From Branchiostoma floridae (taxonomy: Eukaryota > Chordata > Leptocardii > Amphioxiformes > Branchiostomatidae), in assembly GCF_000003815.2 (NCBI RefSeq), contig NC_049982.1, forward strand, positions 23,328,718 to 23,392,717: a stretch of 64,000 nucleotides of DNA, written 5' to 3'. Below, piece by piece: positions 26,535 through 56,587 of this stretch (within the stretch, counting starts at the first letter, position 1; each line of letters begins with the position of its first letter). The notes under the pieces were generated by a model. It was not told the DNA's origin. It did no database searches and saw only the letters and a list, made by a program, of their open reading frames with translations. The position numbers were made by a program, and so were the translations under genes.

Positions 26535-27219
26535 TCAGTCGAACATTGGTTCATCTTCCTCCTCTTCTTCCGGCGTCTCCAGCATCCCGGAAATGTCGTC
26601 AGGGGTGATGCCTTCGACATAAAAGGGTGCGTTTTTCCACTTCCGGCAGGTCAGTCTCTGTCCGTCCGACTTCTCAATGACGAAAGACTCGATCTTCAGG
26701 GTGGGGAAGCTGGCCTGTCTGTACACCATCTGTATTCCCCAGTCTTGTCTGCAGTTTCTGGAAGAAAATGTGATAGGGGGTGTGAACAGAAGTACAAGCA
26801 CAGATACTTGTGGTTTGAGAGTGCAGCTGTACGTATGTATTACTCGGATGAATACAAAGCATCCTCAATCCTGATTCATTTGAGAGTGGAAGGGTCGCAG
26901 AGCAATATGGGTAGGACGTCTGAAGTAACCGGCTGCTCTTCCTGCTGGGAAAATAGCAGAAGTTCTACTGTAATGCTCACAGTTTCACACTGCAATGTGT
27001 AAAGTCACTGGTAATGCTTCTTACCTGCAGTATACTTTTCCGTTCTTTTCCCAGTCGTCAATCTTCTTGGGTGGGTGGGGCTTGATGATGATCCGTTGGG
27101 GAAACGTTTTGTCCACCACCACGTGATGGTTCTCCTTGACCTTGCGGAAGTCGCTGACATTGCAGGCGAACTCCTTGCACTTCACACACAGCAGCCTCAT
27201 CCCCTTTCCACGGATCTTC
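26535..27219 (-). CDS. RLR A C-terminal RNA-binding domain
   Basis: Two exons carry the RLR zinc-binding domain: [11 protein letters not shown] supplies one Cys pair, and [14 protein letters not shown] the other. KIESFVIE and an RKWKNAPF segment follow. The CxxC...CxxC-xx-WG layout matches RIG-I/MDA5/LGP2 domains that bind double-stranded RNA ends. The tail is acidic ([11 protein letters not shown]). Confidence 0.9.
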
Positions 27220-30200
27220 CTGTGTAGAAAAATAATCGAATCCTACTGTTTACTCTATGTATATGTATTGCTATCCATTATCCACTGTTGCCAAACTTTT
27301 GGGGCACTTCACTGACTGTGACACGTACTGTTGGCATGTGTAAGAGTTAAAAATCTACGCAAAGAAATTATTTGCTCGTCAATAAACATTTGAAAGTGTA
27401 AATTGCTCAATAGAAGCAAAAGCAGAAACCAGTCTTCTAGTACAAATGATAACTATGCTGTTGCCTACTTGGTTTTCCTCTGCATTTCCGTCAGCGCCTG
27501 TGCGAGATCTCTTTCCTTCTTGGACTCTTCTTGCAGACGTCGGACCTCCTTCATGAACACTTCCTGTTGTTCCCTCTGCATGTGCCACACCTGCAGCATG
27601 GCCTTCTCCATCAGCTTCTCCCGAATGGTGTTCAACTGCATATCAAAGATTTAGATTTATTGGAATTGCAGAAAATGCAGATGGTTAACGTTATGGGAGT
27701 AGTCACAGTCATGTATTCTTGTGAAATATCACTTCCACCTCCTCATATAGTAATGTTCAGCTTAGATTTTAATTTTTGCACTAGTACTACTTTTGCACAT
27801 TCGTCTGCAGACAAAACATCATAAAAGAAAAAAAACGTAACTCTTATAGACAATAGGAGCATGTTTTAGTCTTTTGTCAATATAGGCTCGTTCTCATTTA
27901 AATGTCCCTAGGGACGTCCACTTATACCTAAATGATGTACTCAAGAAGGTAAGTCCTTTCAAGAAAACAGGGTAAAGTATACTGTCGTAACAAACGTTAC
28001 CGGTAACGTTTGTTAACTGCTCTAGTATCTGTAATACATTATAAATGGGACCGAATATAATAAGTTGCCATTTTTTGGCTATGGTTAAAAGAGCAATTTT
28101 CCACAACCAGGTAGTTTTCACAGAAAATAAAGCTGATTTATTTTTCGACCAAAAAATGCCATTTTTTACATTTCAATGAGAACGAGTGCATAGCTGAAAG
28201 GAAAGCGGTTGATTATTCAAGCTAACTGTGGTTACGTTGCACCTTTTCCTTCAGGACATTTCCGCCTTCTCTTCCAGCGATCAGCACGGACTTACTGCCC
28301 TCAGCACGACCACGTCCTGTACAAAGGGAATGGAAGTCATTATAACTTTCGTGTTACGAGTATTTTGCTCGAAAATACAACAATATTCTGGTCAATGATA
28401 AACCAGTTTACTCGTCTCTTGTTCAGCAATATGTTGTCCATGTTTTGGTGTTGGAAAAAATGTCTGTGCATGAACATGTGGTTATGTGAAATTACCTCTG
28501 GTCTGCACCTTGCCTATCTCGTTGCCCACATAGTCATAGCGGAACACGAAGTTGCACTTGGCGATGTCTATGCCTTCCTCTGCCACAGAGGTGGAGATGA
28601 CAATCTTGTGGCCTCCAGTGTTGAATAGCTCCAGCAGCTCCACCTGCTGATTTTGTGTCATGCCTGCAGTGAACAGGTATCATGTGCTCAATACTCGAGC
28701 TCAATTATGTTGGAAAAGACAAAACCACAAACAGAAACGTCAATTTGTACTTTATTATAGACTGGCTAACTCACAAACAAGAGAGGAATATTTTCTGACT
28801 GTGCAGAAGGTCGATTTACACGTTTTTCCTTTTGATTGAGCAGGTACATTGCAACATTTAAACAACACGCTAAATGAATTGCATCCAGCTTACAGATCTT
28901 CAATAGAATACCAACACGCCCAACGTATAACCTAACCCTTGTTAGGTTAGGGTTAGGGTTATGAGTTAGGGGTTAGGGTTTAGGGTTTATGGTTAGGGTT
29001 AGGGTTAGGCTTGGGGTTAGGGTTAGGGTTAGGGTTAGGGTTAGGGTTAGGGTTAGGAGTTAGGAGTTAGAGATTAGGGTTTGGGTTTGGGTTTGGGTTA
29101 GGGTTGGGGTTGGGGTTGGCGTTAGGGTTATGGTTAGGATTCTACTGTATACTGAATACTGTAACATAAGGCATGTTACCCGTAGAGTCTACCTTTACTA
29201 GAAGTTGATGTGATTTTGTTTCTCAAACAGAATGCATAATGTTTACCTTCCGACAAATGTATAAAGTGAATTGTATAGAGCACATACTGAAATAGAAAAA
29301 TGTTAACGTGGAATCTCATTGACATACTCAGTGTTCTGCGACTAGTCATGTGAAGAGATTCACAGCACGTACAGCAGAAATTAATGCATCTAATCGAAGA
29401 GTTATCACCTCCTGTGCTCTCACTGGCTCCAGCGCCCACGAGCCTTCCCGGGTTGAGCTTTCTAAGATCGGGGTCCTCCTGCATCCACGTGAGTAGGGCG
29501 ATGGTGAGAGCTCGGGTCTTACAGAACAGCAGGCAGCGGGAGTCGGGCTTCTCTGCGTACGCCTGGAGGATCATGTTTTTCAGCTCGTCCAGTTTCGGGT
29601 TGGAGTACTTCGGATCTGCAGCATATTCCTGAAGGTACCCTTTTGCCTCTGCAAACGATAATACAAGAGCACGTCAGATTAGGGACGAATCAACGAATCT
29701 TATCGATGATTACTTTCGAATGACAATTGGCATATTTTGGAAATCGTCAGATGCAAACTCGGGAAGCTTGAATCGCCTTACGCCACTCGTCCCTCTCCTT
29801 TATAAATCACTGCACAGATTGTAATTTGCAATGGAAATATGAACAATTATAACCTATCTGTCACGTTTCCAGCCTTATGATTCTACGAGTCTACTTAACA
29901 GATTGGTAATAAAATCATAATTTGATTTGTTTACACAAAACCACGAATGTACGTACCTATGAAGTGCTTCACCAGATCTTCATCAGTGCCGTCAAAACCT
30001 TCTTTTTGCAGATCAGTCACGAATTTCTCAAGGTACTGCAGAGCATCTTTGGTCCGCGCGTCAGCGTTGATGGCGAGAGCATCGAAGTACTTCTGCAGTG
30101 GTTATGACGTACAGTATGTTGAGTTGTTTTGCATATTTGATGTGAGCCTTTCATGGTTTAAGTTGACGCGTATATGTAGTGTGGTTGTATGGCAATTTAA

Positions 30201-33200
30201 ATCGCTTCGCACTTCTGGCATTTCTGTATCTGTATCTGTATCTATATAGCCGGTATAACCGCCGTTCGGCATAACACACCAGCTTTGCAGGCACGTGGCG
30301 CGGCAGCAGCTGGTTATACTACACCGAACGACTCGTTACCCCTAACTTTTGCACATCTATCTGCAAGCGTTCTTTAAAACTACCGAGGGAAGATGCCCCT
30401 ACTGTACTTGGTGATAACAAGTTCCACTCTGCGATAGTTCGAATTTTTGAACACATCAATCCTAGGTTGTAATTGGTAACTCTGGTATTTGAAGGCATGA
30501 CTGTTTCTTGTTCTTTTTTGAGCTGGTATTAGATACTTATCCGTTGGTACGTCCACCAGTTTATTGGTCATTTTGTACATCATGGAAAGTCTGGACATTT
30601 TCCTTCTGTCTTCAAGTGACATCCACTGCAAATCTGTTTTCATTTTGGTAACACTAGAATCCCTGTTATAGTTGTTTGTACAGAATCGGGCAGCTTGGTT
30701 CTGTACCCTTTCAAGTTTATCTTTGTCTTTCTTTGTATACGGGTCCCATACTGTAGCAGCATATTCAAGGTTAGGTCTTACTAGTCTTACTAGCATTTGC
30801 CAATAATTATGTTGCATTAAAGTTTCGATGGAAAGGCATGGGACAACATTTTTTAATCATGTTCCTTCTCACTGTCAGATCCTCTGATTAATATGCTAAT
30901 AGTATAATCAAAACTACTCTGAATACAACTGCCACGTTTTCGCTGGGTCAATACGCTGATTTCCAGGAGATGGTAAAACTTACTCTAAGGTGTTCTGTGG
31001 CGGCGTGGATGGCTCGGCTGACTTTATCATCCTCGGTGATGATTGCACCCTTTCTAGCTAGGGTCACCACCCACTGTCATACGCCTGTTTCTCTCTTTGA
31101 CGGGGTGGCTTCAGCTCTGCTGTTGTCAGATGCTTTGATGCTGTGGAAAAAGAGAAGTGTAGTTATAGCCCACACCGTCATATCACAGCCATACAATTAT
31201 GATGATAATGCGGGGGGTCCTTGTGGATTCTTGTCTTATATACATATTGAAACGCCTTTTGAAATAAGAGTACTATGTCGATTTTCATGAGCCATTGGCT
31301 AAGACAGAAATGTGAGTGTCTATCTCACCTTCTATAGCCAGTGTGTTCTCAATGCCCTCCATGATCATGTTTACCCTCTCTGCAAACGGGTCTTCACTTC
31401 TTCCACTCACTGGTTTCACTTCTGCAAAATAAAAGTAGCGTTTGGGTATAACGTGAATTGCACACACTGCATTTACGCTTATCAATTCCACTTTACGTTG
31501 TTGGGAAAAGATGATAAACATTTGGCACTTCTTAATACACCACGCTGTTTTAGCTGTAGTCGGCTTAATTCCCTAACATTAACAATGGTTAACATTTACG
31601 ACAATAATACACAGGATATATAAGGCAACTTTTTACCTTCTTCAGGCTTTTGATTATATTTCTCCAGTTCGTCTTTGTGCTCTACAACCTGAGAAATCCA
31701 CGCTGCGTCCAGGTTGGCGCACGCTCCCAGGATATGTTCCACGGCTTCCTTCTGACTCTTCGCCTTCCCCACACCCAGGGAGGCGGTCAGGCCGATGATC
31801 TGCAAAGAAAAAGAAAAAGGGGACAACTGTGAGTGGATATTTTCGTAACCATATGAATAAAAGTTTGTGTTCACCAGGAAACCATGTTTCATGCTTGGGA
31901 ATGTAGTATTTTAGTTTCAGATGTAACTTCTTATCGATGTGTGATACCATCGAATTGAATCATCGAAATTGTATTGGCTATGCAATACTAGTATGTCTGA
32001 TGACCTATAGAACTACGTTGTTAAGCATCGTTGTAAAACCTGGAGTATTGTGTCACTATCAATTGTTACTACACATAAATGGAGATAAGTGTTCTTTTTG
32101 TCTTGTCTCAACGTGTCTGTCTCTGTGTGTCTGAATGTTGGTCTGGTTGTTGTCATGCATCCACAGTACTACTTCTGAGCTTTAATTCCTAAGAGAGTGA
32201 AGTTTGTCATCTCTCCCAAAAAATAATTTCATCAGGTTGGTAGAATATAAGATATGGGAGAATTCTTTTACACAACCAATTTGCACTCACTTTGCTTACC
32301 TTTTGGTGTCATCAGGTGTCTGAGGAAGATGTCTGAGAGTCAACGAAACGTAGGCAAAGTGAGATCAATTTTTTGTGTGTAAATGAATTTTCCTTTATCT
32401 TGTCTGCCATCTCTACTTGCAATACCTTACCTGTGGCAGCCTTGCGCTGCTCTGCTCCACCTTCTGCTTTATGTACCTGGTCATGATGGCGTTGTACGGA
32501 TCGTTCTTCTGGCAGTGGTGACACTCGTCAAAGATCAGCATGGAGAACGTGTCCAGCGTGATCAGCTCGTCCCTCAAGGCGTTCTCCAGAACCTGGGCAG
32601 TCAAGATGATGACGTCGTAATCGGGAAGAGTCTCCCCAACTGGAATGTCGGCTGTAGTTTCGCCACTAAGGGGCAAAATGTCGTACCTGGACGAAACAAA
32701 AGAAAATGAAGTCAAACCGGCCAGAGAAATTAAACGATCGGCTACGATACTACCCATTTGGAACATGCATGGTGTGGTTCAACCACGATGCGCCACGATG
32801 ATCGCTACGCTCGCTCGGTGGTTTATTTTGTGCTATACTATCGGACATAAAGCAGGTCTTATATCACACCTCGGGTCAGGACATTTATCTAATAGTATTT
32901 GTCTATCGATGGCACACAGCCATGCGTACAAAAGTACATAGATGTATTTCTATAAAGTTGACTATGGATGTCAGTAGCTGACTCACTTGGGACTTAGGTA
33001 TTCCCGGAACGCGTTGTACTGCTGTTCCACCAGCGGCACCTTGTTGAGCAGGAACACCACACGCCGCCGTGCATCCTCACCTGCTCCCACTTTTGGAACA
33101 TGGGAAGAGACGCTAAGTTAAATGGGTTTTCCATAGAAGACACAGACGGTATTCTTGAATTGCAATGACAAAGTAAATGTAAGAGAAAGTAAGGGAGCAA

Positions 33201-36200
33201 CTGAGGGAGGGGAGGTCGACCGGTCACGAGGGTACAGATGAGTATTAAATTTGGGGTTAAAATATACCTCTCAAGCTCCTTCTTACACTTTCTTCCTTTC
33301 TTCCTGGAAGTCTCTACAATCATCAACATTATTGAATTAAACTATATGGAGTAATTACCAAAGGCGGCACCGCCTTCCAGATGATTCCGAGTGATTTTGA
33401 TGGCCACGCGAGTCTTGCCACTACCGGTAGGTGCGCAGATGATGGTGTTCCGGCCTTCCAGTGCTGGTGTTGCCAGCTCCATCTGGTAGTCTCGCATGGG
33501 GATGTCCTTCAGTTCTTGTTGTTCGCCAGGCGGTTTGGTGGCTTGTAGAGGCGTCATCTTTTCACATCCTGTATTTAAAAAACGACATGAATGCACTAGC
33601 TGTAGTCATCATACCGTCACCGGTGCTTATCAGACAGCTAAAGTTACCAGTGGAAAAGTCTGGGAAGAGTGTAATGATGTGACAATTGTCTGTGTGTGTG
33701 CAATGGTGAAATCATAATCATCAAACAGTGCAGTCAGATTTTGACAATTTTTAATGACTTTTGATAATTACATTAAATAATATTTTTATTCGCAAGAAGA
33801 AAAGTAAGGTGCGTTTACGAAATAAAGTGGTATCTATTGACTTTGCTTTTTATTTTACCTTCTTTACCCTGCTTCTCATCAAAATCAAAACCGGCTTCTT
33901 GTAAGGCCGTTGATGGCGGTTTGACCTTGTTCACATCCAGACCAATTGTGGTCGGCGCTTCTGTCGGGATAGAGATGTTAGGTGTGTCCTCTTCTGAGTC
34001 TGCAGCTGCTCCGTATGTCGGCCTGGGAACTGAGGAAGAAAAAACGGTTATATAATAAACCGATATTGCTGTCAATCAAAAGTAGTCATGCGGTCAATAG
34101 GGGGGGGGGTGTTTGTTCGTGTGTCCAGTTTAACAATACACGTGCAGAATGTTGAAATTTTGAGATGCATCATCTACAATGGACACATTTACCCTAACCT
34201 GTGATGTATACGAAATGGACATGAATACAAGTTGTTAAGTGAATGATAATCGGTATTACCTTTTGCTAAGTCTTTGTTCCGGCCAAAACGTTCCATCGAC
34301 TGCCTCTTTCTCTTTGTACCTTTAAAGGAAATGGATTATGTTGTCATTTTTAATGTTTTATCTCAATAGGCTAGATTACTTGTTTATCTAACAAATTCAC
34401 TCTTTGCATGTAAGTCAATTGGTAACGTACCATAGTAAAGTTGATCTTTTTCCTAATTTGTAGAGCTTGTGCTTTGATCTTAGAGCTAGACAGGAATGAT
34501 AATAAAGATAGAACTGCATGCTTTACTCACCCGGGTACCCCTGATCTGACAGTAACTGCACAATTTTGACGGCAACTTCTGTGATGTCTTCTGCAATGTT
34601 GTCATATTGGATACGGTGAGCGCGGGTCTTCTTCAACAAGGGGAAGCGGTTGCCGACCTTTTTGCTAAAAGTTTCAAAGTTGTCTGTGTTTTGATCCAGC
34701 CAAATCGGGTAGAATTTCTTTTGATGAAACAAGGACTTTTCATACTCTAGTCTAGGCCAGTACTTATCCAGCAGATGATTACTTATGACAATAGTAACCA
34801 GCTTCAAACTTTCACTTTCAAGCGTGGACATGATTTTCTCTGAAATGTTCTCTCCTGTGCTGATTGACACCTCATCAAAGAAGATCTCCTCTTCATGTAG
34901 ATTTTGACCCAGTAGAGCTTTGTGAAGCGGTCGGACAAATGACTTCTTGTCCTCTCCGGCGTGGATGATGAACAAGCTGGGCCCTTTCGAAAGGAAAAAT
35001 TTTAAAAAAAATACCACGCTAAGTAACGAATATCAAGTAAAAAACAAGATGTACCAGCACACCAGAGAATTGATTAGGCTAAGAATATGCATGTTATTGA
35101 CAGGCTATGAAGACTTCTTAAAATCATTCAATTTCATGACGAAGGGACAAAATGCCAGAGACGTAATGGAGCCTCTGTGTCATGGCAATTGGCATAAATC
35201 TATGGATTAGTCTGTAATACAACTACATGTATAGTTTGAAGTAATTTTGTTTTATAAGGACCGTTCTGTTTAATTCTAGCCTTTAAACAAAGCTTGGAAA
35301 TAGCATAGCAGGGAAATAACAGGCAATACGTCTGAATGACAATTGATGTATCAATGCAATATGTATTATGAAAATTTCTATTATGGGTATCTATAATCAT
35401 AAAACTTGGAATTACCTCTTCTGGTGGGTTGTTGTATTGGTGAGGATGCTGGTACGACACTGCCTTCAATATGACTTGTACTTGCCACAGCTGTGGCAGG
35501 AACAGAGCCTCCGGACAAGGTTGGCTTAGGTTGACCTAATGGCGATTGATACATTATTTCAGATATCAAACAATACCGTCAAGGACAAAGGATTTATTAA
35601 TGATTCATTCCACCATGTATGAAGCTCAATATGCTGTTGCATCAGAACTTCCGCAGGATTAAATTTGTTGCCATATAGTCAGACGATGCCGACCAATCAA
35701 GATTCCCATTTTGAATGTTAGATTTACGATATCGATTATAATGCAAGATTTTTAATGTTAAAATACTATTATGATACAACATTAAGTTTGAAATAATGAT
35801 TTAAGATATGAACAATATAGTAGGAAACACAATGGCATGAAACTCAATGCAAGAACGTAAAACGATATCAAGTGCACACGCACCCATTCTTGTAGTGGCA
35901 CAATCCAAAACGATACATTTTTTTTCGTCCGCCATCTTTGTTTGTGTCCACAACATGGGCATATAACGTTGCCAGAGTTTTTACCTTGAAAACCTGTCTG
36001 AGATTGCCTTGGACTGACTTATTAGGCCGTTTGAAACAAATGAAAAATATTCTGGCCTTGCTATGCAGGCAGGGTCGACTTACGACAAGATTACAAGTCG
36101 ATTTGCTTAATACTGAGTTGACAACATATCGTACGTTTACCTGTGTCAGATTGAATACGCTTCCTTAGTCACTGTATATAAGGCGCCGTATTATATTATA

Positions 36201-36739
36201 GCTTGGACCTTCTCCGTTGCAATAGTGAAATAGAGAACATTAGGGTTTATAAAACAGGATGTTGTGAAGTGATTCACAACAGCTAACAGTAACAGGTAAA
36301 TCGGACTTCTAATAGCAGCATACCCTAGATTTTGCAGTAAGTTTAATGTAACGTTAAAGGAAATTGTTTTACAAATGGTTGGTATTATACTTCATTTATT
36401 AGTTTGTGTCTGATATTTCTGAATTGTTAAATTCAACATGTAACATCATTTTCACTTACTTGCATCACTCTCTTCCTGCAACAAGTCTGCCAGATGAGGA
36501 TAGGTTTCCTGCAGGATTTCACAAAACACGGGGAATGCAGTTGGGCCTCTGGTCTGTAGCAGGTCAATAAGTTCGTCCGCTCGCTCTTCGTGTGTTAGTT
36601 CCTGTTTTATGACCTCCTGTTTCATTGACGGCAGCAGAATACCTCGTTCTATCAGCTTGTTCACTACGTGGGTCACTCTCAAATCTCGTCTGATGTCAGG
36701 CAGTCTTCTTTGGAGAATGTCTCGGTGCTTGGACTCCAT
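26535..36739 (-). CDS. RLR copy A: CARD-TIR-helicase-CTD, with one frameshift
   Basis: Exons in transcript order: 36739-36460, 35535-35416, 34983-34531, 34319-34260, 34029-33859, 33568-33359, 33089-32987, 32686-32431, 31799-31637, 31421-31329, 31140-30984, 30092-29957, 29648-29409, 28663-28496, 28316-28243, 27635-27469, 27219-27025 and 26757-26535 (stop TGA). This is about 1090 residues. Order: CARD, Ser/Pro linker, TIR, basic linker ([11 protein letters not shown]), acidic linker, DExH helicase, zinc-binding C-terminal domain. RLRs are cytosolic RNA sensors; the CARD and TIR should be effector modules. Exon lengths equal those of copies B and C except exon 30984-31140. There a missing T near 31078, against copy C, puts a stop in frame. 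The gene is a recent pseudogene, a null allele or an assembly error. Confidence 0.85.
27469..31421 (-). CDS. RLR A second helicase domain and pincer
   Basis: Eight exons. Motif IV is [11 protein letters not shown]; motif V is [17 protein letters not shown]; motif VI spans two exons as [11 protein letters not shown]. The exon 27635-27469 is a long charged helix ([13 protein letters not shown]), the pincer arm typical of RLRs. The damaged exon 30984-31140 lies between motif III and motif IV and corresponds to the Hel2 insertion. Confidence 0.85.
27887..28186. mobile_element. MITE with ~19-bp terminal inverted repeats
   Basis: The ends CTCGTTCTCATTTAAATGT and ACATTTCAATGAGAACGAG are inverted with one mismatch. 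The 300-bp element is absent from the same intron in copies B and C. No clear target duplication is seen. Confidence 0.75.
28937..29140 (+). repeat. Interstitial telomere-like (TTAGGG)n block
   Basis: Long runs of GGTTAGGGTTAGGG with variants (GGGTTTGGG, GGGTTGGGG) lie in the intron between the motif IV and motif V exons of copy A. The same intron of copy C has a block at 60765-60909. Confidence 0.95.
30222..30830 (-). mobile_element. CR1-like LINE 3' end with reverse-transcriptase tail ORF
   Basis: The minus frame 30817-30380 encodes about 145 residues ending a non-LTR reverse transcriptase ([20 protein letters not shown], then [12 protein letters not shown]). The element ends in (ATACAG)n on the minus strand. 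It is 5'-truncated, sits in one copy A intron, and is absent from the matching intron of copy C (61822-62106). Confidence 0.88.
31637..33568 (-). CDS. RLR A first helicase domain
   Basis: Exons 33568-33359, 33089-32987, 32686-32431 and 31799-31637. Motif I is [13 protein letters not shown], motif II is [14 protein letters not shown] and motif III is [15 protein letters not shown] is the RLR form of the DExH box, and [10 protein letters not shown] is the Q-motif-like entry. All ATP-binding residues expected for an active first RecA domain are present. Confidence 0.93.
34531..34983 (-). CDS. RLR A TIR domain exon
   Basis: One 453-nt exon encodes 151 residues and nearly a whole TIR fold: [15 protein letters not shown] (strand A), [18 protein letters not shown] (BB loop), [22 protein letters not shown], and FYPIWLD. 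W-P-R-L-E places a Glu four residues after Trp, the position of the catalytic Glu in SARM1 and plant TIR NADases. The phase is 1 on both sides, so it can be inserted or skipped without changing frame. Confidence 0.92.
36460..36739 (-). CDS. RLR A N-terminal CARD exon
   Basis: The ATG at 36737-36739 starts [29 protein letters not shown] and [17 protein letters not shown] follow, ending with HLADLL. The RGPxAFxxFxxxL motif is characteristic of RAIDD/caspase-2/caspase-9 type CARDs rather than RIG-I CARDs. It suggests caspase recruitment by homotypic binding. Confidence 0.9.
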
Positions 36740-39871: not shown

Positions 39872-40556
39872 TCAGTCGAACATTGGTTCATCTTCCTCAT
39901 CTTCTTCCGGCGTCTCCAGCATCCCGGAAATGTCGTCAGGGGTGATGTCCTTGACGTAAAAGGGTGCGTTTTTCCATTTCCGGCAGGTCAGTCTCTGCCC
40001 GTCCGACTTCTCAATGACGAAAGACTCGATCTTCAGGGTGGGGAAGCTGGCCTGTCTGTACACCATCTGTATTCCCCAGTTTTGTCTGCAGTTACTGAAG
40101 AAAATGTGATAGGGGTGTGAACAGAGGTACACGAACAGATATTGATATTTACCCCAAGGGACTGGTTTGAGCGTGTAGCCGTACGTATATGCTGCTTAAA
40201 TGATTACAAAACATCCTCAATGCTGAATTCTTTGGGACTGGATGGAACGCAGAGCAGTATAGAGTAACTGGTTGCTCCTACTGCTGGGAAGATAACAGAA
40301 GTTCTAATGTTATGGTCATAGTTTCACACTGGAATGTATACTCGCTGGTAATGATTCTTACCTGCAGTACACCTTTCCGTTCATTTCCCAGTCGTCAATC
40401 TTCTTGGGTGGGTGGGGCTTGATCTCGATCCGTTGGGGAAAGGTTTTGTCCACCACCACGTGGTGGTTCTCCTTGATCTGGCGGAAGTCGCTGACATTGC
40501 AGGCAAACTCCTTGCACTTCACACAGAGCAGCCTCATCCCCTTTCCGCGGATCTTC
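39872..40556 (-). CDS. RLR B C-terminal domain exons
   Basis: The same 195- and 223-nt exons as copy A, with about 95% similar residues. The Cys pairs are kept ([11 protein letters not shown], then a Cys pair before QNWGIQM). Small changes include YVKDITPDD for YVEGITPDD. The domain itself is intact. Confidence 0.88.
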
Positions 40557-40704
40557 CTGCAGAGAAAAAGAATCGAATCCTACTGTTAACTCAATGTATA
40601 TGTACTGCTATCCATGATCCACAGTTGCCAAACTTTAGAGACACTTCACTAACTGTGACACGTACTGTACGCGGGCATGTGCAAAGGAATTATTTGCTCA
40701 TCAA

Positions 40705-41055
40705 TAATAATAGCCTTTATTGCACATTCATGCCCTACCGGGCTAAGTACAGGCATATAGATACAAAAGGTAGTAATGCAGTACACATGGTTTCTAAAAC
40801 ATGGATTCTAAAACTAGTCTAATACATTTGTTCGGCTTCTTCTCGTTTCTTAGTAATGTTGAATATGTAGCTTGAGATGTGTTTGTATAATATCGTTCGA
40901 TCAAACCTCATAAGAAAAATGGATTTTTCAACACTAGACAAAGATTCAAAGCGAGGGAGCTTTCCTATGATATAGCTAAAAAGAATACTTCTATCATTAC
41001 TACATAAACTACAATCTAATAAAAAGTGGGCTTCATCTTCGACCTTGTTCATGAA
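40705..41055 (-). mobile_element. LINE 3' fragment in RLR B intron
   Basis: The minus frame 41052-40819 reads VEDEAHFLLDCSLCSNDR, the Cys-rich C-terminus common to non-LTR reverse transcriptases. It is followed by a 3' UTR ending in GCAATAAAGGC (minus). The insert lies between TCAAT and GAAAATT-CGAAACAGTGG, which are adjacent in copy C. Confidence 0.75.
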
Positions 41056-41782
41056 AATTCGAAACAGTGGAAATTGCTCAATAGAAGCAAAAGCAGAAAC
41101 CAGCCTTCTAGTAAAGATGATGCCTACTTGGTTTTCCTCTGCATTTCCTTCAAAGCCTGAGCGAGATCTCTCTCCTTCTTGGACTCTTCTTGCAGACGTC
41201 GGACCAACTTCATAAAGTCATCATGCTTCTCCCTCTGCATGTGCCACACCTGCAGCATCGCCCTCTCCATCAGCTTCTCCCGAATGGTGTCCAACTGGAA
41301 ATCAAAGGTTTAGATTTATTGGAATTACAGAAAATGCAAAAGATGGTCAACGTTATGGGATTATTCACAGCTAAATCATGTATTCTTGTAAAAGATCACT
41401 TCCACCTTCTTATATGATAATGTTTAGCTTTTTGCACTACTTTTACACATTATTCCCCAAACAAAACATCATTAAAAAACTCACTCTTATAGACAACAGC
41501 AGCATGTTTTAGTCGTTTGTCAATTAAGGGTTAATGACCCGCCCCAAGGTGTATATGGTGTGATAACGCCTGGTCCTTTTGCTATAACCACCGAATGAAA
41601 CCACCGTGTGAGCGAAGCGAACGAGGCGTTTTATGAGGCTTGGCATGTCAAGCCTTTTCCAAAATCTTATTGTACTAGTACTGTATTCATGATCATTCCT
41701 CTCCTGGGGTCTGATCTTTACTCCTTACTCTGTGCTATTCTGTTTTATTTATCTCTCATTCTGATTGGCCAGAGTCCTGCGT

Positions 41783-41856
41783 GTATCGCTCCTTCTGATT
41801 GGTCAGAATTTTTACTGGTGTCGAGGCAAATTCTGACCAATCAGAAGGAGCGATGC
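41783..41856. repeat. Long perfect-like hairpin
   Basis: A 28-nt arm (41783-41810, CGCTCCTTCTGATTGGTCAG core) pairs with 41829-41856 with one mismatch and an 18-nt loop. It sits within a ~430-bp insert (41520-41950) not found in the matching introns of copies A and C. Confidence 0.85.
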
Positions 41857-41997
41857 ACACCGGGCTGGCCGGAATCTATGTGTTACGGCATCATAACCAA
41901 CATCAAACAGGGCATTATGGTTGATCCGCGGCATCCGTCTATATAATAATATACCTTAAAGACAAACGCGGTCCATAATTCAACCTAGCTGTGGTAC

Positions 41998-44121
41998 CTT
42001 TTCCTTCAGGGCAATTCCGCCTTCCCGTCCAGCGATCAGCACAGACTTGCTGCCCTCTGCACGACCTCGTCCTGTAGAAAGGAAAATAGACATGATTATC
42101 ACTTTAAGGTTATTTCGTTCGAATATACAACAAAATTTCGATCAATGTCAATGATAAACCAGTTTACTAGTCTTGGCTGTTTTAGCTGTTTCCGGCTTAA
42201 TTACGTTAACATATTGGTGAACATTTACGACACAGGACATATAAGGCAACTTTTTACCTTCGTCTGGCTTTTGGTTATGATACTGCAGTTCGGCTTTGTG
42301 CTCCATAACCTGAGAAATCCACTCTGCGTCCAGGTTGGCGCATGCTCCCAGGATATGTTCCACGGCTTCCTTTTGACTCTTCGACTTCCCCACACCCAGA
42401 GAGGCGGTCAGACCGATGATCTGCAATCAAAGGGCAACATAGTTCTTGCCTGTGATCGATAGATAGCAGTAGTCCTTTAAATATGATTAGACATTTTCGT
42501 AACTGTGTGGATAAAAGTTCATCAGGAAACCTGTGTCATACTTAAGAATGTAGTATTTTAGTTTGAAAGGTAACTTCTTGTCGATATGTGATACCATTGA
42601 ATTGAATTATCAAAATTTCAAAGTGTATTGGCTATGTAATACTAGTATGCCCTATACAACTTCGTTGTTGAGTATCCTTGAAATACCTGGAGTAATGTGT
42701 CACTATCAATAGTTACTTCACATGAATGGAGGTAAACATTGTTTTTGGCTTGTCTGTCTGTCTTAATGTCTGTCTCCGTGTGTCTAAAAAATGTCGGTCT
42801 GGTTGTTGCCATGCATTCACTCACTCACTCTCACTCATCCTCGCCGCATATCAGACTTCGCTGAGGCGGGCATTCACAGTGTTACTTATGCGTTCTGTTT
42901 TCTTAAGAGGGTGAAGTATTCCATCTCTCCTAAAAATGATTTCATCAGGTTCGTAGAATACAGGATATAAGAGAAATCTTTTACACAACCAATATATGCT
43001 TCTTTGCTTACCTTTCTGTGTCCGAGGAAGATGTCTGAGAGGCAACGAAACGCAGGCAAACTGAGAACAAATTGATTGTATAAAAAAGTTCTCCTATATC
43101 TTGTCTACCTTCTCTAGTTCTCTAGCAATGCCTTACCTGTGGTAGCCTTGCGCTGCTCTGCTCCACCTTCTGATTGATGTACCTGGTCATGATGGCGTTG
43201 TACGGATCGTTCTTCTGGCAGTGGTGACACTCGTCAAAGATCAGCATGGAAAATGTGTCTAGCGTGATCAGCTCGTCCATCAGGGCGTTCTCCAGCACCT
43301 GTGCCGTCAGGATGATGACGTCGTAATCGGGAAGAGTCTCTCCAACTGGAATGTCGGCGGCAGTTTCACCACTCAGGGGCAAAATGTCGTACCTGAATAA
43401 AACAAAAGATAACGTCTAACTTAAAAGAGAAATTAAACAATCGTCTACGATACCACCCTATCTTTGGAAACCGCAAGCGCCTTACCAGTACAAACAAATG
43501 ATATGTGCATGTCTAGACAACGATGGATGGCAGTAAATATTCGCTTTGTCTATCAGGCTAGTCGAACTCACTTGGGACTCAGGTATTCCCTGAAAGCATT
43601 GCATTGCTGTTCCACTAGAGGCACCTTGTTGACCAGGAACACCACACGCCGACGTGCATCCACACCTGCTCCCACTTCTGTAATATAAAGACAGACGCAT
43701 TTTCGGTTAAATGTATTTCTTGAATTGCAAAGACAATAGAAAAGAAAATCCCGGGGAGGAGCCGGGAGAAAGTACCAAAGTGGGCAAATTGAAATAATTC
43801 GATCGAAAGTATATAATTGGAGGTTACAGCGTACTTCTTCTTCTTACAATTTCCTCCCATCTCCTTACCACCGCCGTTATTGAATAGAACTGCACTAAAT
43901 GTAGTACTTACCGAAGGAGGTACCACCTTCTAGATGTTCCCGAGTGATTTTGATAGCCACGCGAGTTTTGCCACTACCGGTAGGTGCACAGATGATGGTG
44001 TTCCGGCCTTCCAGTGCTGGCTCTGCCAGCTCCACCTGGTAGCCTCGCATGGGGATGTCCTTCAGTTCACTTTGTTCGAAAGGCAATTTGGCGGCTTGTA
44101 GAGGCGTCATCTTTTCACATC
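41998..44121 (-). CDS. RLR B helicase remnant: Hel1 intact, Hel2 core missing
   Basis: Exons 44121-43912, 43674-43572, 43392-43137 and 42420-42258 keep motif I ([10 protein letters not shown]), motif II (FDECHHCQ) and motif III (GLTASLGVG). The next exon is 42071-41998, [10 protein letters not shown], half of motif VI. The five exons carrying the Hel2 insertion and motifs IV and V in copies A and C are absent. Splicing 42258 to 42071 is phase 1 to phase 1, so the shortened protein stays in frame. Confidence 0.85.
42168..42182. other. Deletion junction inside RLR B intron
   Basis: Left of this point the intron matches copy A 28318-28418 (AAACCAGTTTACT); right of it the intron matches copy A 31543-31630 (GCTGTTTTAGCTGT). 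The join removed about 3 kb with five exons. Confidence 0.8.
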
Positions 44122-44346: not shown

Positions 44347-46766
44347 CTTCGTCGTCCTGCTTCTCAGCAAATTCGTCAAAACCGGCAGTTGCTGACGGTT
44401 GTTCCCTGTTTGACGCATCCAAACCAATTGTGATCGGCGTCTCGGAAACGATTGTCTCACACAGCAGAGGTTCGTATTTGTTAACAACATTCATGTGCAC
44501 CCGGTCCATGGCCAGTTCATCTGCAAGATCGTCATGTTTGGTCCTCCTCAGCCCCTGCAGGAACTGCCTGTACCAGCCGGGTGGGAATCGAGTCACTCGA
44601 TCGATGAGAGTGATCAGGGCTCGTGTGTTTCCATGGCTACGGGTTTCTGCCTCGATTTGATCCTATAAGACACATTATTGGGGGTCGACACAGATTAACT
44701 ATAAAAACAGTGCAGATCACTTTGTCTATAAATCATCTACATGCAGACACTAAGGCAAAACTAAATTCAATGCTGTGTAAACGCTAATCTACCTACCTTG
44801 TCTTGATCTGACAGACAGGGAAGGTGTGGCAACATCTCCATAGCAACGACCACCTGCAGTTGCGGTGCCCACAGCTGTAGGAGGCGCTTGAGGGGAGTCA
44901 TATCCTGGATTGTCTCTCGACCCTCCATGATAGCCTTGATAAATTTATACCCTGTTGGATGCACAGCCTTTATGTTAGTTTGTCATGCATAGGAATCACT
45001 TGGAGTAAACATTCCCAATTGGCCTTTGCTTCCTATTTTACTAATAGAAACCATAGCGTTTACCTGAGTTCTCCAGGGAATTTAGAAATGCCTGAAACCA
45101 CCCCGGCTGCTCGCACGTCTGTAGTTTCAGCAGAAGTGTCTGCATTGCCTCGGCTGGTCCCTTGTTTCTCTCATCAGCAATGATGGTTCTGACAAACCCC
45201 AAACCTTAACAACAGAAAAAGGCAGTATAGCTTACAAATTAAATTTACACCTTGCATGTATATTAGATCCCAGCATACAATTTACTTATATAATTAAAGT
45301 ATTGTCCATAATCCATGCAAATAATGGGCAGGGTGTGTGAGCAAAATTTCTTGAACTACTCAAACCCATACAGAAGAAAACAACTTACCATTGTCAAAGT
45401 AACTCATAAGGTGGACGACGATGTTACCAGGAATGACCGTGTCCTTTAAGGCCCCCTCTCACTTGACGTGCGGCACGCTTGCGGGATTGCTGCGTTCCGA
45501 AGATGCTCTATTAATTTTCAGAGATTATTAGCGAATTTTCGGACTTGCTTGATGTTCAGAGCGCCTAGTGGACACAATTAGTCTGTAGAGAGAATACCCT
45601 GAGTCTGAGTAGTGGGGATTCATCACGAACTGCGCGCAGCTCCTAACAGAACAGCGTCTGCAAAGAGCATTAGGCCCCCCNNNNNNNNNNNNNNNNNNNN
45701 NNNNNNNNNNNNNNNNNNNNNNNNNNNNNNNNNNNNNNNNNNNNNNNNNNNNNNNNNNNNNNNNNNNNNNNNNNNNNNNNTACGTATTGCGCAATATCCG
45801 AATCATAAAAAATCGAAGAAAATAACAAAACAGTGACGCAGTGAACGAACGCAGCAATGCCGCAAGCGTGCCGCACGTCAAGTGAGAGGGGGCCTTTAGT
45901 AGCGGGGCGAACGCCTCCAGAAGGGCCTTTCCCAGCTCGTCCGTGGCCGGGATGGGCTCTGACTTGGTGTCTGTGCCGTCTGTTCCTGGCAATACGTCAG
46001 CAGCATCTGTTTGAGAGTAAAATTTTCAGGAAACAACAGGTCAACTTTCTCTTATTTTATGTCGCAGTTAAATCAAATTTTAAACCAACTTGTGTGTGAT
46101 CAAAGCTGTTGACACAGACATATGAAGTCACTTTCCACATCTCCCCTATTATCATGCTCGGACATTATATTTGTGATGTTGACGTTCCCACTATCATCGA
46201 ATCCGACTTTACAGTTGTATGTTTGTGTTTGCAAGTTAAGTTTAGATGTGAAATTTGAAAATGAGACGTAAAATAAGCAACAGTTACGATAAACTACAAA
46301 ACATGACTGCAAAAAAAGTTTTATTAATCTTTCCGCCGAATGGATTTTGTTAGTCAATTATAACTTCAACGTTATTGGCCCGTTAAACTGAATTTTAAGT
46401 GAAAGAAAGAATTCAAAGCAAAAATGTCGTCTATTGTTTTCCTGTAGTCGTCGGTGCTTGTCAGACAGCTTGATATTTTACTATTGGTAAAGTTTTCAAA
46501 AAGCAACATTGAGCAAAGGTGCTGTAATGATATGACAAGGTTCTGTGTTCGTAATCGTTAAATTATAGTCATCAAACAGTAAAGTCAGAAAAATGAAAAT
46601 TCTTTTACAAAAGAGAGGCATCTATTGACTTTACACTTTGCTTTCATTTCACCTTCTTCCTCTTGCTTCTCAGCAACCTCTTCAAACCCGGTTTCTTCTC
46701 GTAGGGCGTCCAGACCAATTGATGTCAGCGCCTCCGCGACTGTTGTATCGTCTTCTGAGTCTGCAG
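44347..46766 (-). CDS. RLR B CARD pair, second set, with linker
   Basis: Exons 46766-46653 (acidic linker), 45985-45389 (first half of CARD1, split by a MITE), 45204-45064 (second half: ADERNKGPAEAMQTLL, CEQPGWFQAFLNSL), 44951-44797 (CARD2 first half: LLQLWAPQLQV, MLPHLPCLSDQDK) and 44662-44347 (CARD2 second half: GWYRQFLQGLRRTKHDDLA, plus linker TIGLD). GWF-x-FL-xxL is the RIG-I/MDA5 CARD signature. Each CARD split by one intron matches RLR gene structure. Confidence 0.8.
45449..45895. mobile_element. MITE inserted in CARD exon, TTA target duplication
   Basis: The terminal inverted repeats start AGGCCCCCTCTCACTTGACG and continue to about 50 bp, perfectly mirrored at 45845-45895 apart from small differences. 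TTA flanks both ends (45446-45448 and 45896-45898). The paralogous exon at 49917-50063 is uninterrupted at the same codon. A 3-bp TWA duplication fits PIF/Harbinger-type elements. The centre contains the assembly gap. Confidence 0.9.
45681..45780. other. Assembly gap, 100 N
   Basis: One hundred undetermined bases lie inside the MITE; the true length is unknown. Confidence 1.
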
Positions 46767-47945: not shown

Positions 47946-50063
47946 AGCCTGTAGAGTCTGATTCGTCGCCATCTTTATGTTCGTCGTCCTTCTCTCTGTC
48001 ATCCTTGTCGCCAGGATAGATGCCCGGGAGAACCTCCTCTTCTGTTCATGTAAATCAATGATAAGTTCTATTTGACATGTTGACAGGCTGTAATCATTTC
48101 AAATCCAACTTTACGGGGCTTTGTGCCACTAAGAAAATTCAATATATTTGGGAATTATAGTCATTGTGCCCTTATTCTAATGGGATTGTACTAGTCCAAT
48201 GGTGTCTGCAGCAATCTCTTTCTTTCATGTTGAATACAAATCAGGCCCTTGAAACTCCGGCGGTGCAGTCTTTGTTCGCTTTAGCGCATTCTGTGATCAG
48301 GCAATATGTACTGCAGCGTTACAAGCTCGTATGACTAACAGTGCGATGTATTGTGCTAATTGGCAAAAGGGGGAGTTCAATACACCTGATAAACAGGAAC
48401 ATTAAGGACCAAAATCTCCCTAGTGCTCAGCTTTTGAAAATCCCTTACCTGTCTTTATGTCTTCCAGCTCATCAGCAAGGCCGTCGTGCTTGCTCCTCCT
48501 CAGCCCTTCCAGGAACTGTGTGTACCAACCGGGTCCGCATCGAGTCACACGGTCGATGAGAGTGATTAGGGCACGGGAGTTGCCATAGAAACGGTTTTCT
48601 GTTTCGACTTGTTCCTATAAAGAAACACACTTTGAAATCAAGCACAACTTAACTTTTCTTTCATTTGAAAAATTTACTGAATAATTTTGCAACACTGGGA
48701 CAAAACAACGATCACGTTGATCATTCCGTCCGTAAAATCTGCATGTAGACATATGTAGCTCCATAACTGTGAAGTATATGTGAAAGTGAAATATAGGGAC
48801 AAAAGTGAAAGTACTTTTGACTAGAATAAATGCATTACTGTTACTAGCTACATCTGCATGTACTGAATACAAACATGTCAACAAGAAAATTCGATGCTGT
48901 GTAAACGCTAGTCTTCCTACCTTGTCCTGATCTGACAGACAGGGAAGGTGTGGCAACATCTCCATAGCAACGGCCACCTGCAATTGCGGTGCCCACAGCT
49001 GTAGGAGGCGCTTGAGGGGAGTGAAATTCTTGGTTGTCTCTCGGCCCTCCATGATAGTCTTTATATGACTGTAGCCTGTTGAGTACAAAACCTTCAGGGT
49101 AATTTGTCAGGCATAAGAATCACTTGAAATAAACGTTCCCAATTGGCCTTTGCTTGCATTTACTAATAGAAACCATAGCGTTTACCTGAGTTGTCCAGGG
49201 AATTTAGAAATGCCTGAAACCATCCCGGCTGCTCGCACGTCTGTAGTTTCACCAGAAGTGTCTGCATTCCCTCAGCTGGTCCCTTGTTTCTCTCGTCAGC
49301 AATGATGGTTCTGACAATCCCCAAACCTAAACAACAGCAAAAAGGCAGTATAGCTTATAGAGAATAAATTGTCTTTGTTTTCCTGCTTTGGTTGAGAAGC
49401 ATTATTAACTTGAGCACTAGTACTAGTATCTAGATATTACTTGATGAATGCAGTTCTTGGCATGCTTTTCTATTCATATTTTCAACACAATGGATTGCAT
49501 ACATCTTCAATGCATCAATATAGTCCATACCATTGTTTTTCAAAGCTGGTGAAACTAACGTTTTCGTAAATGATCTAGCGAAATGCTAGGCTTTTTACAA
49601 AAGTCACCTTTCACATCTCTATCCGATAATGATGTTTGTTTTGATTTAAAAGTCTTTATCGCGATACATTAATTTTGGAGATATACATATCAGTGCTTGC
49701 ATGAATATATTATCCTTATGAAGGCTGAATTGGGTTTAAAACGTGATTTTCATTCGTAAGGCATAGATTAGATTCGAACCTTTTTATTATATGTTCTAGA
49801 TCCCAGCATCGAATCTACTTATATGATAAAAGCATTGTCCATAATCCATTAAAATAATAGGCTTGGCGTGCGGGCAAAATTTGTTGAACTACTCAGACTC
49901 ATACAGAAAATCTTACCGTTGTGAAAGTAGCCCATCAGATGGACGACGATGTTGCCAGGAATGACGGTCTCCTTCAGTAGCGGGGCGAACGCCTCCAGAA
50001 GGGCCTTTCCCAGCTCGTCCCCGGTCTGAATGTGATCTGACGTGGTGTCTGTGCCGACTGTGC
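47946..50063 (-). CDS. RLR B CARD pair, first set
   Basis: Exons 50063-49917 (DELGKALLEAFAPLLKE, VVHLMGYF), 49326-49186 (ADERNKGPAEGMQTLL, GWFQAFLNSL), 49075-48921 (LKRLLQLWAPQLQV) and 48614-48449 (GWYTQFLEGLRRSKHDGLA), then acidic linker 48041-47946. Lengths of 141 and 155 nt match the second set at 44.3-46.0 kb exactly, showing a tandem copy of the whole CARD1-CARD2 block. This set is intact. Confidence 0.82.
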
Positions 50064-50929
50064 CTGTTGAAAAAATAGAAATGGATAAACATTTAAAAAA
50101 AACGTCTTGAATTTGAATCTTGAATGATCCTGTCATAATGTCAGTCTACAACAGGACATCTCTTGCATATATTTTACTTTTCCTCGGTTAGTTCCTAGAA
50201 GTAATTTCTATTTGATCAGTCTGTAAGGTTTCTTTCTTTACAAAGTCATCTATAACCGAATGAAGCATACTATTTGTACAGTACCGAAATTTAGTATTTT
50301 GTTTTCCCGTTCACGTGGCTTGCCTGAACCATAAATGCTTTCCTATGGGAAGATGTCCCCACGAAAAGTCATGGTAAACAGTAAATTTCACTTACTTGCT
50401 GCTATGCTGTTGTTCCAAGGATTACTGTTGGCGTCCATGCTTTCATCATCTGAAAAAGACACATGGGAAACATGTGATGTTCTTTACTAGTTACTTACTA
50501 GTTAATTACGAATGATTCATATCTCAAAGAAAAAGTTAATATTGTACCCAATGATCAGTAAAAAAAAACTGGCCTTACCTAAGCTAGAGTATCAAAATCT
50601 GATACAATGCTCGTGTCGGGGCCGGCAAGGGAAAAACTATTTTGATACAGTGTCATTTTAATAAAACCCAACTTTAGGAATATAAGCTACTTACAAATTA
50701 TATCTGATAGCTAATGGGCTGAATAAAGTATCCTAAGTATCATGTCGCAAAAGCTATTCAGAGTGCCGTATATACGCATTTAGCTATTCTCTGAGCCGAG
50801 ATTGGGTCGCTCCCGACATTTCCTGATCATGATTGTTAACAGCCTTTATCCAAATTGAATTATGCAGATGAATTTCCATTCGTGCATTGTTAATGCTTTA
50901 TTAACATCAAACAGAAATAACAGACTTAC

Positions 50930-51265
50930 CTGCTGATTTCTTTGTGTCCTCTACAAGGGCCATCCTGTTTTCAAGCCTGAGGATTCGTGATTCAATTATA
51001 GCAAACCGTTCCTCCTCTTCAATGTTTTCTACAGATTCTTGCCTTTCTTTCCATTCATTCCCCCTTTGCTCATTGTTTTTCTGTGGTTGATCCTGCAATG
51101 ATTCTCTTTTTTCTGACAGATACCTCACTTGAATTGCCACACTGTCGCTTTCAGCAGCCTGTTCAGCAGCTTGGTGCTTGCCTACGTCCAGTTTTGCCAT
51201 CAGCTGACGACCTTTCTGAGCACTTCGTTGCTGCGGTGGTGTGGACATTTCCTGGGTCACATTGT
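50930..51265 (-). CDS. RLR B coiled-coil exon
   Basis: One 336-nt exon (112 residues), highly charged and Gln/Glu-rich. A heptad-like region ENIEEEERFAIIESRILRLE suggests a coiled coil for oligomerisation. No counterpart is seen in copy A. A short exon at 50449-50396 lies between it and the CARDs. Confidence 0.65.
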
Positions 51266-51995
51266 CTGAAATTGAAACATTTTTAAAATCATTTTACTAA
51301 TCACTGACCGATAGGTAACAGCTTATTCTTCTTGCAAATGCGGAACAGAGTTTACCTGTTTCCCCTTCTTTTCATTACAGATGTAATTACTATGGCCATA
51401 TCGCCATGGTTTGCCAGAAGGTGCGAAATTTCTCTTATTTGTTTGCATGTAATTGTGTGATTATTCTACAACTGTTACAATAGGTGAAGTCATAACTAAG
51501 TCATAACTAAGTGCACTAGCTTGATTTTTGCTGTGGTTCTGACTATTGAAGAAGCCACACAAGGCGAAACTAGTCTGAAGTTGGGCTTGAACAGAGTTCT
51601 ACGTGGGAACTATGAGGTTACAGCGTCTTTTCTGAAGATGTGCCGTGAGTGTATACGGTTAGCTTGAGGTTGCCCACTACCATTTGCTCGCTTGGTAGCT
51701 TACTTTGATAGTAAATGTTTTACCTCAACATTGTACTTTGATGTAATTCCTACACGGGAATAATGATGAAGGTTACTAATAGCTAAAACAGTCTGCTTTA
51801 CTGACCTGAATGGCACTGAGCTGACAGCAAAGTCTGAACAATTGCATGTGTTATCCTAAAATAAGGTAAATTTATCAAGATGACTCTTTACATGTAAGTC
51901 AATTGACTTACCTTTTCCTAATAGATATGTAGACATTGTTCTTTGATCTAAGTACTAAAGAGAAAAAATAACGAATGTAAAATTGTCTTACTCAC

Positions 51996-52448
51996 CTGGA
52001 TGGCACTGATCTGACAGTAACTGCACGATTTCGATGGCAACATCTGTGATGTCTTCTGCAATGTTGTCATACTGGATACGGTGAGCGAGGGTCTTCTTCA
52101 ACAAGGGGAACCGGCTCCCGACCTTTCTGCTGAAGGCTTCAAAGTTGTCTGTGTTCTGATCCAGCCAAATTGGGTAGAATTTCTTCTGATGAAACAAAGA
52201 CTTTTCATACTCTAGTCTAGGCCAGTACTTATCCAGCAGGTGATTACTTATAACAATAGTAACCAGCTTCAAAATCTCACTTGCAAGCGTGGACATGATT
52301 TTCTCTGAAATGTTTTCTCCTGTGCTAATTGACACCTCATCAAAGAAGATCTCCTCATCAGATAGGTTTTGACCCCGGAGAGCTTTGTGAAGTGGTCGGA
52401 CAAATGGCTTCTTGTCCTCACCAGCGTGGATGATGAACAGGATAGGTC
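51996..52448 (-). CDS. RLR B TIR domain exon
   Basis: The same 453 nt as copy A and open throughout. [48 protein letters not shown] and [11 protein letters not shown] are all kept. Differences are few and conservative, with no stop, although the surrounding gene is damaged. Confidence 0.9.
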
Positions 52449-53198
52449 CTGTCCAGAGGAGAGTAATACACCAAATATTACCACACTAAATGAGTAGAAA
52501 GGCCACAGCAAGAAAATTAACGGATGAAACCAGCGCGCTCATTTCCTCTACGGGGATGGTCATATAGACCAAAATAGGCAAACATGGTGTGTTGTAGCCT
52601 AATAATCATACTTGTAGAAGTGACACTAGGGAGGTAGCCATGACTATAGTAGCTGAAGTGAAACTTGTTGGATAGTTGCCACCAATAGTTGCCACCAATA
52701 TGGAAGCCATGAAGGTAGTTGCCAGCTTGGCAAGTGATACCAGTGTACCACTCTAGTGTAACTTTTTCACTTCTTTGTTACAGGAATGAATGCCTTGTTA
52801 GTTGTGATGCCACGTTTTGTCACTTCAAATCTTGTTACGACATTTATGCTGTCTATTTTGAAAATTTATCCATTTTTTTTACCATCATGATTTTCTTTCG
52901 CGCTATCCAATTATTTTGGCACTCTGCATAGGATGTCATCCATAAAATGTACTTGCTGTGGCCTAAGTGAGGGAGGCGTGGGGAGGGAGGCTTGGAGTGG
53001 CAGACAGGGATAGATGGAAAGAGGGAGTGGTGTAGGGAGAAAAATGAACCTTTTATGGTCACTGAGGTTATTTTTAGCTCTCATACATGTAATTATCCAG
53101 TTCTTTTGTCAATGGTGTTCAAAGCAATAAACATGTATGGTAGTTGATTTAACGAAAATGTCACCATTGGGAAACGATAGATATTTAAAGAATAGTAC

Positions 53199-53313
53199 CT
53201 TTTCTGGTGGATGTTTGCATTGCTGAGCATGCTGGCAAGGTCCTACTTTGACTACGACTTGTACTTGTAGATGGTATAGTGGCTGGAGCGGGAACAAAGC
53301 TTATTAGGCTGAC
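53199..53313 (-). pseudogene. RLR B linker exon, frame-broken
   Basis: This is homologous to copy A 35416-35535 (VPA-A, STSTSR, PA, TRKG remain), but it is 115 nt long instead of 120. Entering in phase 1 hits a stop about 20 codons in, and the downstream frame is shifted. The exon is phase 1 on both sides in copy A, so skipping it keeps CARD and TIR in frame. Confidence 0.7.
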
Positions 53314-56310: not shown

Positions 56311-56587
56311 TTGCGTCACCTTCTTCTTGCAGCAAGTCTGCCAGATGGGGATAGGTCTCCTGCAGTACTTTACAAAACACGGGGAATGCAGTCCGGCCTC
56401 GGGTCTTCAAAAGGCAGATAAGTTCATCCACTCGCTCTCCCTGTGTTTCCTTACTATAGATGTCCATTCCCATGGGCGGAAGCAGAATGCATCGTTCGAT
56501 CAATTGGGGGATTACGTACTTCACCCTCAAATCTCGTCTGATATCAGGAAGTCTTCTCTGCAGAATATCCCGGTGCTTGGACTCCAT
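56311..56587 (-). CDS. RLR B N-terminal CARD exon
   Basis: ATG at 56585-56587. The first 22 residues are the same as in copy A, and LLKTRGRTAFPVFCKVLQETY is close to it. It keeps the RAIDD/caspase-9-like RGxxAFxxF signature. The donor (GCAA|GTAAGT) is in phase 1 as in copy A. The exon is one codon shorter. Confidence 0.9.

Follow-up and report, generated by a model that had tools for sequence, protein, structure and literature searches.

A putative chimeric CARD-TIR-RIG-I-like receptor locus in a tandem receptor cluster of the lancelet Branchiostoma floridae

A 64,000-nucleotide stretch of the Branchiostoma floridae genome (RefSeq assembly GCF_000003815.2, contig NC_049982.1, C4:23328718-23392717; the window) contains a tandem cluster of RIG-I-like receptor (RLR) genes, in which one gene, referred to as copy A, appears to join a CARD and a TIR domain to a RIG-I-type helicase and C-terminal domain. 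As far as sequence comparison can tell, it is well supported that copy A is a chimeric CARD-TIR-RIG-I-like receptor locus. A single CARD-TIR-RLR transcript is the likeliest reading of this locus and we consider it fairly probable; that copy A makes a working full-length protein is uncertain, and less certain than the transcript. All gene copies discussed (A to D) lie on the minus strand, and genome searches covered the 513-Mb assembly with its 431 contigs.

Exon chain and domains of copy A

Copy A was read exon by exon, and checked by script, as a series of 18 exons (E1 to E18) on the minus strand from 36739 to 26535, with modelled exons totalling 3,260 nt. The exons and the evidence for them were as follows.

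36460..36739, minus strand: E1, start codon and CARD (Apaf-1/RAIDD/caspase-9-like), donor in phase 1; Pfam and structure matches
35416..35535, minus strand: E2, linker between CARD and TIR, with a weak acceptor (splice scores: acceptor -0.7, donor 9.4); exon chain
34531..34983, minus strand: E3, TIR domain, with a GTGAGT donor in phase 1 that is common to copy B; TIR_2 match
34260..34319, minus strand: E4, putative, 20 amino acids, basic; optional, as E3 to E5 is also in phase
33859..34029, minus strand: E5, after its first codons the linker between RLR CARD2 and helicase; alignment to copy D
33359..33568, minus strand: E6, helicase motif I (APTGSGKT); Pfam and PDB matches
31329..33080, minus strand: E7-E10, helicase domain 1 with DECH, and the start of Hel2i; Pfam and PDB matches
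30984..31140, minus strand: E11, Hel2i; alignment to copies C and D shows a broken frame
27025..30092, minus strand: E12-E17, remaining Hel2i, helicase domain 2, pincer and first half of the C-terminal domain; open
26535..26757, minus strand: E18, end of RIG-I_C-RD and the stop, which ends at 26535

All 17 introns have GT-AG borders by script check, and the phases agree along the chain through exon 10. No stop was present in E1-E10, nor in E12-E18, each part being read in its own frame. The five introns from the CARD exon to the first helicase exon (E6) are all in phase 1. Since the introns joining CARD, E2, TIR, E4, E5 and E6 share this phase, E2, E4 or E5 could be skipped without a change of frame. 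In E5, the indels relative to copy D are multiples of three (judged by eye from the alignment). The first-pass annotation had proposed that a CARD and a TIR domain are spliced in matching phase onto a RIG-I-type helicase; the domains, the GT-AG borders and the phase 1 joins agree with this proposal, but the frame is broken at E11.

Owing to this frameshift, the first and second parts of copy A were scanned separately in Pfam. Above the cut-offs, the first part matched CARD (47.7 bits), TIR_2 (33.1), ResIII (76.3) and DEAD (68.6), and the second part matched Helicase_C (60.7), RIG-I_C (52.6) and RIG-I_C-RD (115.4). Copy A thus has the superfamily 2 (SF2) helicase core of an RLR (DEAD/ResIII plus Helicase_C) and its RIG-I_C-RD, with two CxxC pairs in the E17-E18 translation, which we take to be the zinc cysteines. 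The Hel2i/RIG-I_C insertion is present as well, recognised as two pieces because the frameshift splits it; the match above is its C-terminal piece, and the N-terminal piece reached 17.5 bits against a cut-off of 23.2. Twin RLR-type CARDs were not found between the copy A TIR and the helicase with the CARD_2 profile and the CARD1/CARD2 pieces. Measured against LGP2, the RLR without N-terminal signalling domains, copy A has no RLR CARDs, but its CARD-TIR exons splice in phase. The RLR-CARD model CARD_2 was weak on the copy A CARD (29.7 and 25.3 bits in two scans, cut-off 28.2), and the nearest solved structures to this CARD were an Apaf-1-based design, Apaf-1, RAIDD and caspase-9. For the first half of the helicase, the best PDB bit scores were 211.9 for MDA5, 211.4 for RIG-I and 170.1 for LGP2; for the second half of copy A they were 275.9 for RIG-I, 211.6 for LGP2 and 202.3 for MDA5.

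On the copy A TIR, the second profile, PF01582, scored 17.2 bits, below its cut-off, and an AlphaFold model from the single sequence had a mean predicted local distance difference test score (pLDDT) of 52.4. Eight solved structures matched this TIR at E <= 0.01, one of them titled NAD(+) hydrolase AbTIR; the top matches are known as bacterial TIRs. The glutamate of the WPxLE motif (W-x-x-x-E), which we assume to be the catalytic position of the NADase, was invariant in all 13 aligned TIRs (13 of the 57 TIR matches in the genome). Signalling TIRs can also retain this glutamate. NAD+ cleavage by the copy A TIR is therefore put no higher than possible.

The junction and its sources

Korithoski et al. 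(2015, PMC4565553) describe in their article text a B. floridae cluster that holds, within 100 kb, RLRs together with IPS1, three 'possible toll-like receptors' with CARDs, and a duplicated open reading frame (ORF) with dual CARDs. The cluster of copy A is probably this RLR-IPS1 cluster. Within it, the sequence of copy A changes its homology between E3 and E6, at two features.

34010..34386, minus strand: fusion junction, by homology boundaries; 34385-34081 is covered by neither CARD-TIR nor RLR homology
34000..34080, minus strand: intron end, acceptor and first E5 codons; match to L057 842-921

Copy A can be aligned with the CARD-TIR gene that lies ahead of copy B as far as 34386, and its RLR homology starts at 34010 against copy D and at 33957 against copy B. 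The segment 34080-34000 aligns in the same sense with L057 842-921 (75% over 81 columns, E = 3e-9 in a 104-kb stretch), which follows a CARD_2 match on the plus strand (C4:23422743-23422913; 36.9 bits, one stop in frame) at a distance of a few hundred bases. This match is a candidate for the published cluster's IPS1/MAVS gene. The frame of L057 reads VPRPTSGAAAG there, an exon start that looks rich in proline and is similar to the first E5 codons of copy A (its counterpart likewise has 11 residues). Because 34080-34000 resembles an exon start beside a MAVS-like CARD, E5 is a mosaic exon whose acceptor has a plausible source, and since the junction joins CARD-TIR, MAVS-like-neighbour and RLR homologies, copy A as a whole is a mosaic of cluster genes. 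It has neither the RLR CARDs nor the coiled-coil-like exon that is seen after the TIR of copy B. A misjoin of distant loci was considered as the origin of the junction and rejected on the homology evidence: a 981-base junction stretch gave four matches in the genome, of which only the window's own was full-length, the remaining three lie in the same cluster, and the homologies continue locally on both sides.

The likeliest origin of this locus is a recombination between members of the tandem cluster, by which the front of a CARD-TIR gene came to lie before the linker exon of an adjacent RLR with twin CARDs; a short segment resembling the MAVS-like neighbour would have brought in the splice acceptor at the joint. 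The CARD-TIR gene would thereby have lost its 3' exons, and the RLR its twin CARDs. Because all introns involved are in phase 1, the joint would read through as one transcript.

The strength of the splice sites was scored with a matrix that had been trained on sites of copies A, C and D (30 donors, 30 acceptors). The donor of the TIR exon E3 scored 9.2, a value reached by 2.2% of the 580 GTs in the locus, and the E5 acceptor was fair at 7.7, reached by 2.5% of the 677 AGs; the E4 acceptor scored 5.0. In 12 of 12 TIR loci read by eye (of the 57 matches genome-wide), the TIR is followed by a GT donor; genes therefore do not usually end with the TIR exon. An ORF starting like 'IQTLLYLTPS' was found within 1.5 kb downstream of the TIR in nine of these loci, copies A and B being among the other three.

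The exon 11 frameshift and alternative explanations

Several points weigh against a single receptor gene. Compared with copies C and D, E11 (31140-30984) carries a one-base deletion and a three-base insertion, because of which the frame stops after helicase domain 1, and a single open frame through the helicase and C-terminal domain is not present in copy A. A genome search with this exon gave three matches (A, C and D) and no second allele. The lesion may be a fixed mutation, a null allele or an error of the assembly. The CARD-TIR-RLR fusion was found at a single locus, and no homologue of E4 was found. Weak acceptors precede E2 (the score of -0.7 is below all 30 training acceptors) and E3 (3.9), and 12 of the 30 donors and 12 of the 30 acceptors in the matrix come from the helicase part of copy A itself. 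In the article text of Korithoski et al. (2015, PMC4565553), RLRs and 'toll-like' genes are listed apart, with twin CARDs for RIG-I and MDA5 and with no fusion. Finally, among private changes after the lesion, copy A has 20 non-synonymous to 19 synonymous against 21:48 for C plus D, a borderline difference (Fisher p = 0.04).

Before the lesion, the corresponding counts were 10:18 for copy A and 8:23 for C plus D (Fisher p = 0.57); codons differing in all three copies were set aside (8 before and 9 after the lesion). Pairwise ratios of non-synonymous to synonymous substitution rates (dN/dS) were calculated by script with the Nei-Gojobori method, dropping codons with gaps or stops and omitting weakly aligned exons. 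They ranged from 0.13 to 0.23 for copy A against B, C or D across the CARD, TIR, helicase and C-terminal parts. For A-B the values were 0.22 (CARD), 0.16 (TIR), 0.23 (E6-E9) and 0.19 (E15-E18). Before E11 they were 0.15 for A-C (E7-E9) and 0.13 for A-D (E6-E9), and after it (E12-E18) 0.17 for A-C and 0.18 for A-D. By these measures the parts of copy A were under constraint, with slight signs that it has lately relaxed downstream of the frameshift.

The locus might instead hold two genes: a truncated CARD-TIR gene ending in the RLR linker exon, where it would run past the donor to a stop, and then an LGP2-like RLR starting from a methionine in E6. Such a methionine does stand in frame ahead of the helicase, and the unspliced frame of E5 ends in 'RYHFIS*' and is followed by AATAAA. 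Of the two AATAAA motifs near E5, the second is absent from copies B and D, but the first, which overlaps the E5 donor, occurs also in copy B, where a helicase follows; the motifs were for this reason rejected as decisive for two genes. Liu et al. (2015; as cited in the text of PMC5752451) are reported to describe an LGP2, a class without CARDs, from the amphioxus B. japonicum, and LGP2 and separate 'toll-like' genes were predicted in the B. floridae cluster, according to the article text (Korithoski et al. 2015, PMC4565553). Nevertheless, the donor of E3 is strong and conserved in copy B, the RLR linker frame is kept in E5 with a good donor (9.1) before E6, and the gap from the TIR to the first helicase exon is less than 1 kb, so we judge two genes to be unlikely.

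A little more doubtful still is that copy A is a recently dead relic, a chimera formed or decayed by array recombination that makes a CARD-TIR-helicase-domain-1 fragment at most, or nothing. The E11 frameshift and the borderline non-synonymous excess after it speak for such a relic, and copy B has no matches to E10-E14, so the cluster does shed parts. However, this is a single frame-breaking lesion in all of the modelled exons, the A-C and A-D ratios behind it are well below 1, and an error in the assembly could account for a one-base difference. One CARD-TIR-RLR transcript from copy A is therefore retained as the favoured reading.

Neighbouring copies, known receptors and implications

The other copies were compared with copy A using the following features of the window.

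56311..56587, minus strand: CARD exon of the gene upstream of copy B, with 74% identity to that of A
52006..52446, minus strand: same gene, TIR exon, 90% identical to that of A
about 50913..51293, minus strand: same gene, exon coiled-coil-looking by eye; no Pfam match
48465..50025, minus strand: first twin RLR-type CARD exon set before B, without a helicase of its own
44513..45941, minus strand: second twin RLR-type CARD exon set, adjoining helicase B; N gap at 45681-45780
39872..44121, minus strand: copy B, helicase with C-terminal domain; E10-E14 without a good match
58331..63714, minus strand: copy C, helicase with C-terminal domain; matches cover E7-E18, with E6 not found and an N gap following

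The first-pass annotation held that copy B repeats the CARD-TIR start, so that the fusion would be no single accident of assembly. This does not hold, as two RLR CARD sets and the coiled-coil-like exon lie between the TIR and the helicase of B; with these RLR CARD exons intervening, B was rejected as independent support, and the fusion is seen only once, since B retains RLR CARDs next to its helicase. No counterpart of the coiled-coil-like exon of B was found in A. If the donor of this exon is unused, a stop and AATAAA follow, and the same pair follows the coiled-coil-like exon of copy C; because of this, the CARD-TIR series before B and C are read as probable separate genes, each followed by an ordinary RLR. 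A single very long gene from CARD-TIR to RLR is less likely for B and C, although the donors of these exons and the RLR CARD1 acceptors look compatible.

The twin RLR CARD exons of copy C and its series of CARD, TIR, TRADD-like and coiled-coil-like exons lie upstream of it, outside the window (L044, C4:23396.9-23401.9 kb); the TRADD-like exon after the TIR scored 18.6 bits in Pfam, below the cut-off of 23.7. Ahead of the helicase, copies B (two sets), C and D thus all carry twin RLR CARD exons (CARD1/CARD2 pieces; PF16739). CARD and TIR pairs precede A, B and C, and none was present before D in the stretch read upstream. Genome-wide, RIG-I_C-RD gave 11 matches, grouped into six loci: A to D, C4:20.86 Mb and C1:15.12 Mb. 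No TIR match was listed near the last two, of which the C1 locus was read directly for only about 250 bases upstream of its helicase.

Some further observations concern the neighbours. The CARD set at 48465-50025 shares 90% identity over 473 bases with the one adjoining helicase B, and is similar to a dual-CARD ORF that has been reported beside B. floridae MDA5. The counterpart of E2 in the gene upstream of B (53188-53334, minus strand) is out of frame with the CARD exon, and the CARD exon joins the TIR in phase without it. Judged by the exons of copy A, the end of E9 and the start of E15 agree in phase 1, and the other exons of B are constrained (dN/dS to A 0.19-0.23); copy B is possibly an in-frame RLR that lacks Hel2i and the greater part of helicase domain 2. 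Alternating CARD and TIR matches were also seen on C12 (near 20.44-20.49 Mb).

Compared with vertebrate RIG-I, MDA5 and LGP2, copy A shares the helicase with Hel2i and the RIG-I_C-RD, but it has an Apaf-1/RAIDD/caspase-9-like CARD and a TIR instead of twin RLR CARDs, and a frameshift in Hel2i. In the open-access literature, with subscription papers and supplements outside the search, no description of a TIR-RLR fusion was found. The article text of Yao et al. (2022, PMC8998645) counts seven RLRs in B. floridae and reports lophotrochozoan RLRs in which foreign N-terminal domains (Death, DED, IG, SAM and CASc) sit on the RLR core as in copy A; it names no TIR graft, and leaves four single-species 'X' types without further definition. 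TRADD-N was found fused to RLR-like receptors in cnidarians and brachiopods, together with lineage-specific expansions of shuffled adaptor proteins in lancelets (Kaur et al. 2021, PMC8195603, article text); here too an adaptor domain is carried by an RLR-like receptor, but it is TRADD-N and not TIR. Shuffling of TIR and NACHT was described for amphioxus, with 28 TIR domain combinations of which 20 are amphioxus-specific (Zhang et al. 2008, PMC2575513), and the terms RIG-I and helicase are absent from its main text (supplementary lists outside this scope). RLR domain grafting and amphioxus TIR shuffling are thus already known.

If copy A is translated, its helicase and C-terminal domain would, judging from their families, bind viral RNA and multimerise on it, and this would cluster the N-terminal CARD and TIR. 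The CARD could then signal by CARD nucleation with Apaf-1/caspase-9-type partners and the TIR through assembly of TIRs, with NAD+ cleavage as a possible addition, in place of contacts between RLR-type CARDs and MAVS. That copy A would signal 'without MAVS', as the first-pass annotation held, we can only infer, and twin-CARD RLRs and the possible MAVS CARD_2 match share its cluster. In its fullest form, which we offer as an unlikely proposal, the lancelet would have, at present or until very recently, an RNA sensor with a CARD and a potentially NAD+-cleaving TIR on its own chain, pieced from three neighbouring immune genes, that passes from RNA binding to TIR output without MAVS beside canonical twin-CARD RLRs, as an animal counterpart of TIR-effector defence sensors. 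If copy A is expressed, and open in other animals, cytosolic RNA sensing would be linked to TIR output on one chain, and the locus would be a traceable case of signalling-end swaps between tandem neighbours with same-phase introns. It makes MAVS bypass in lancelet RLR signalling a testable question.

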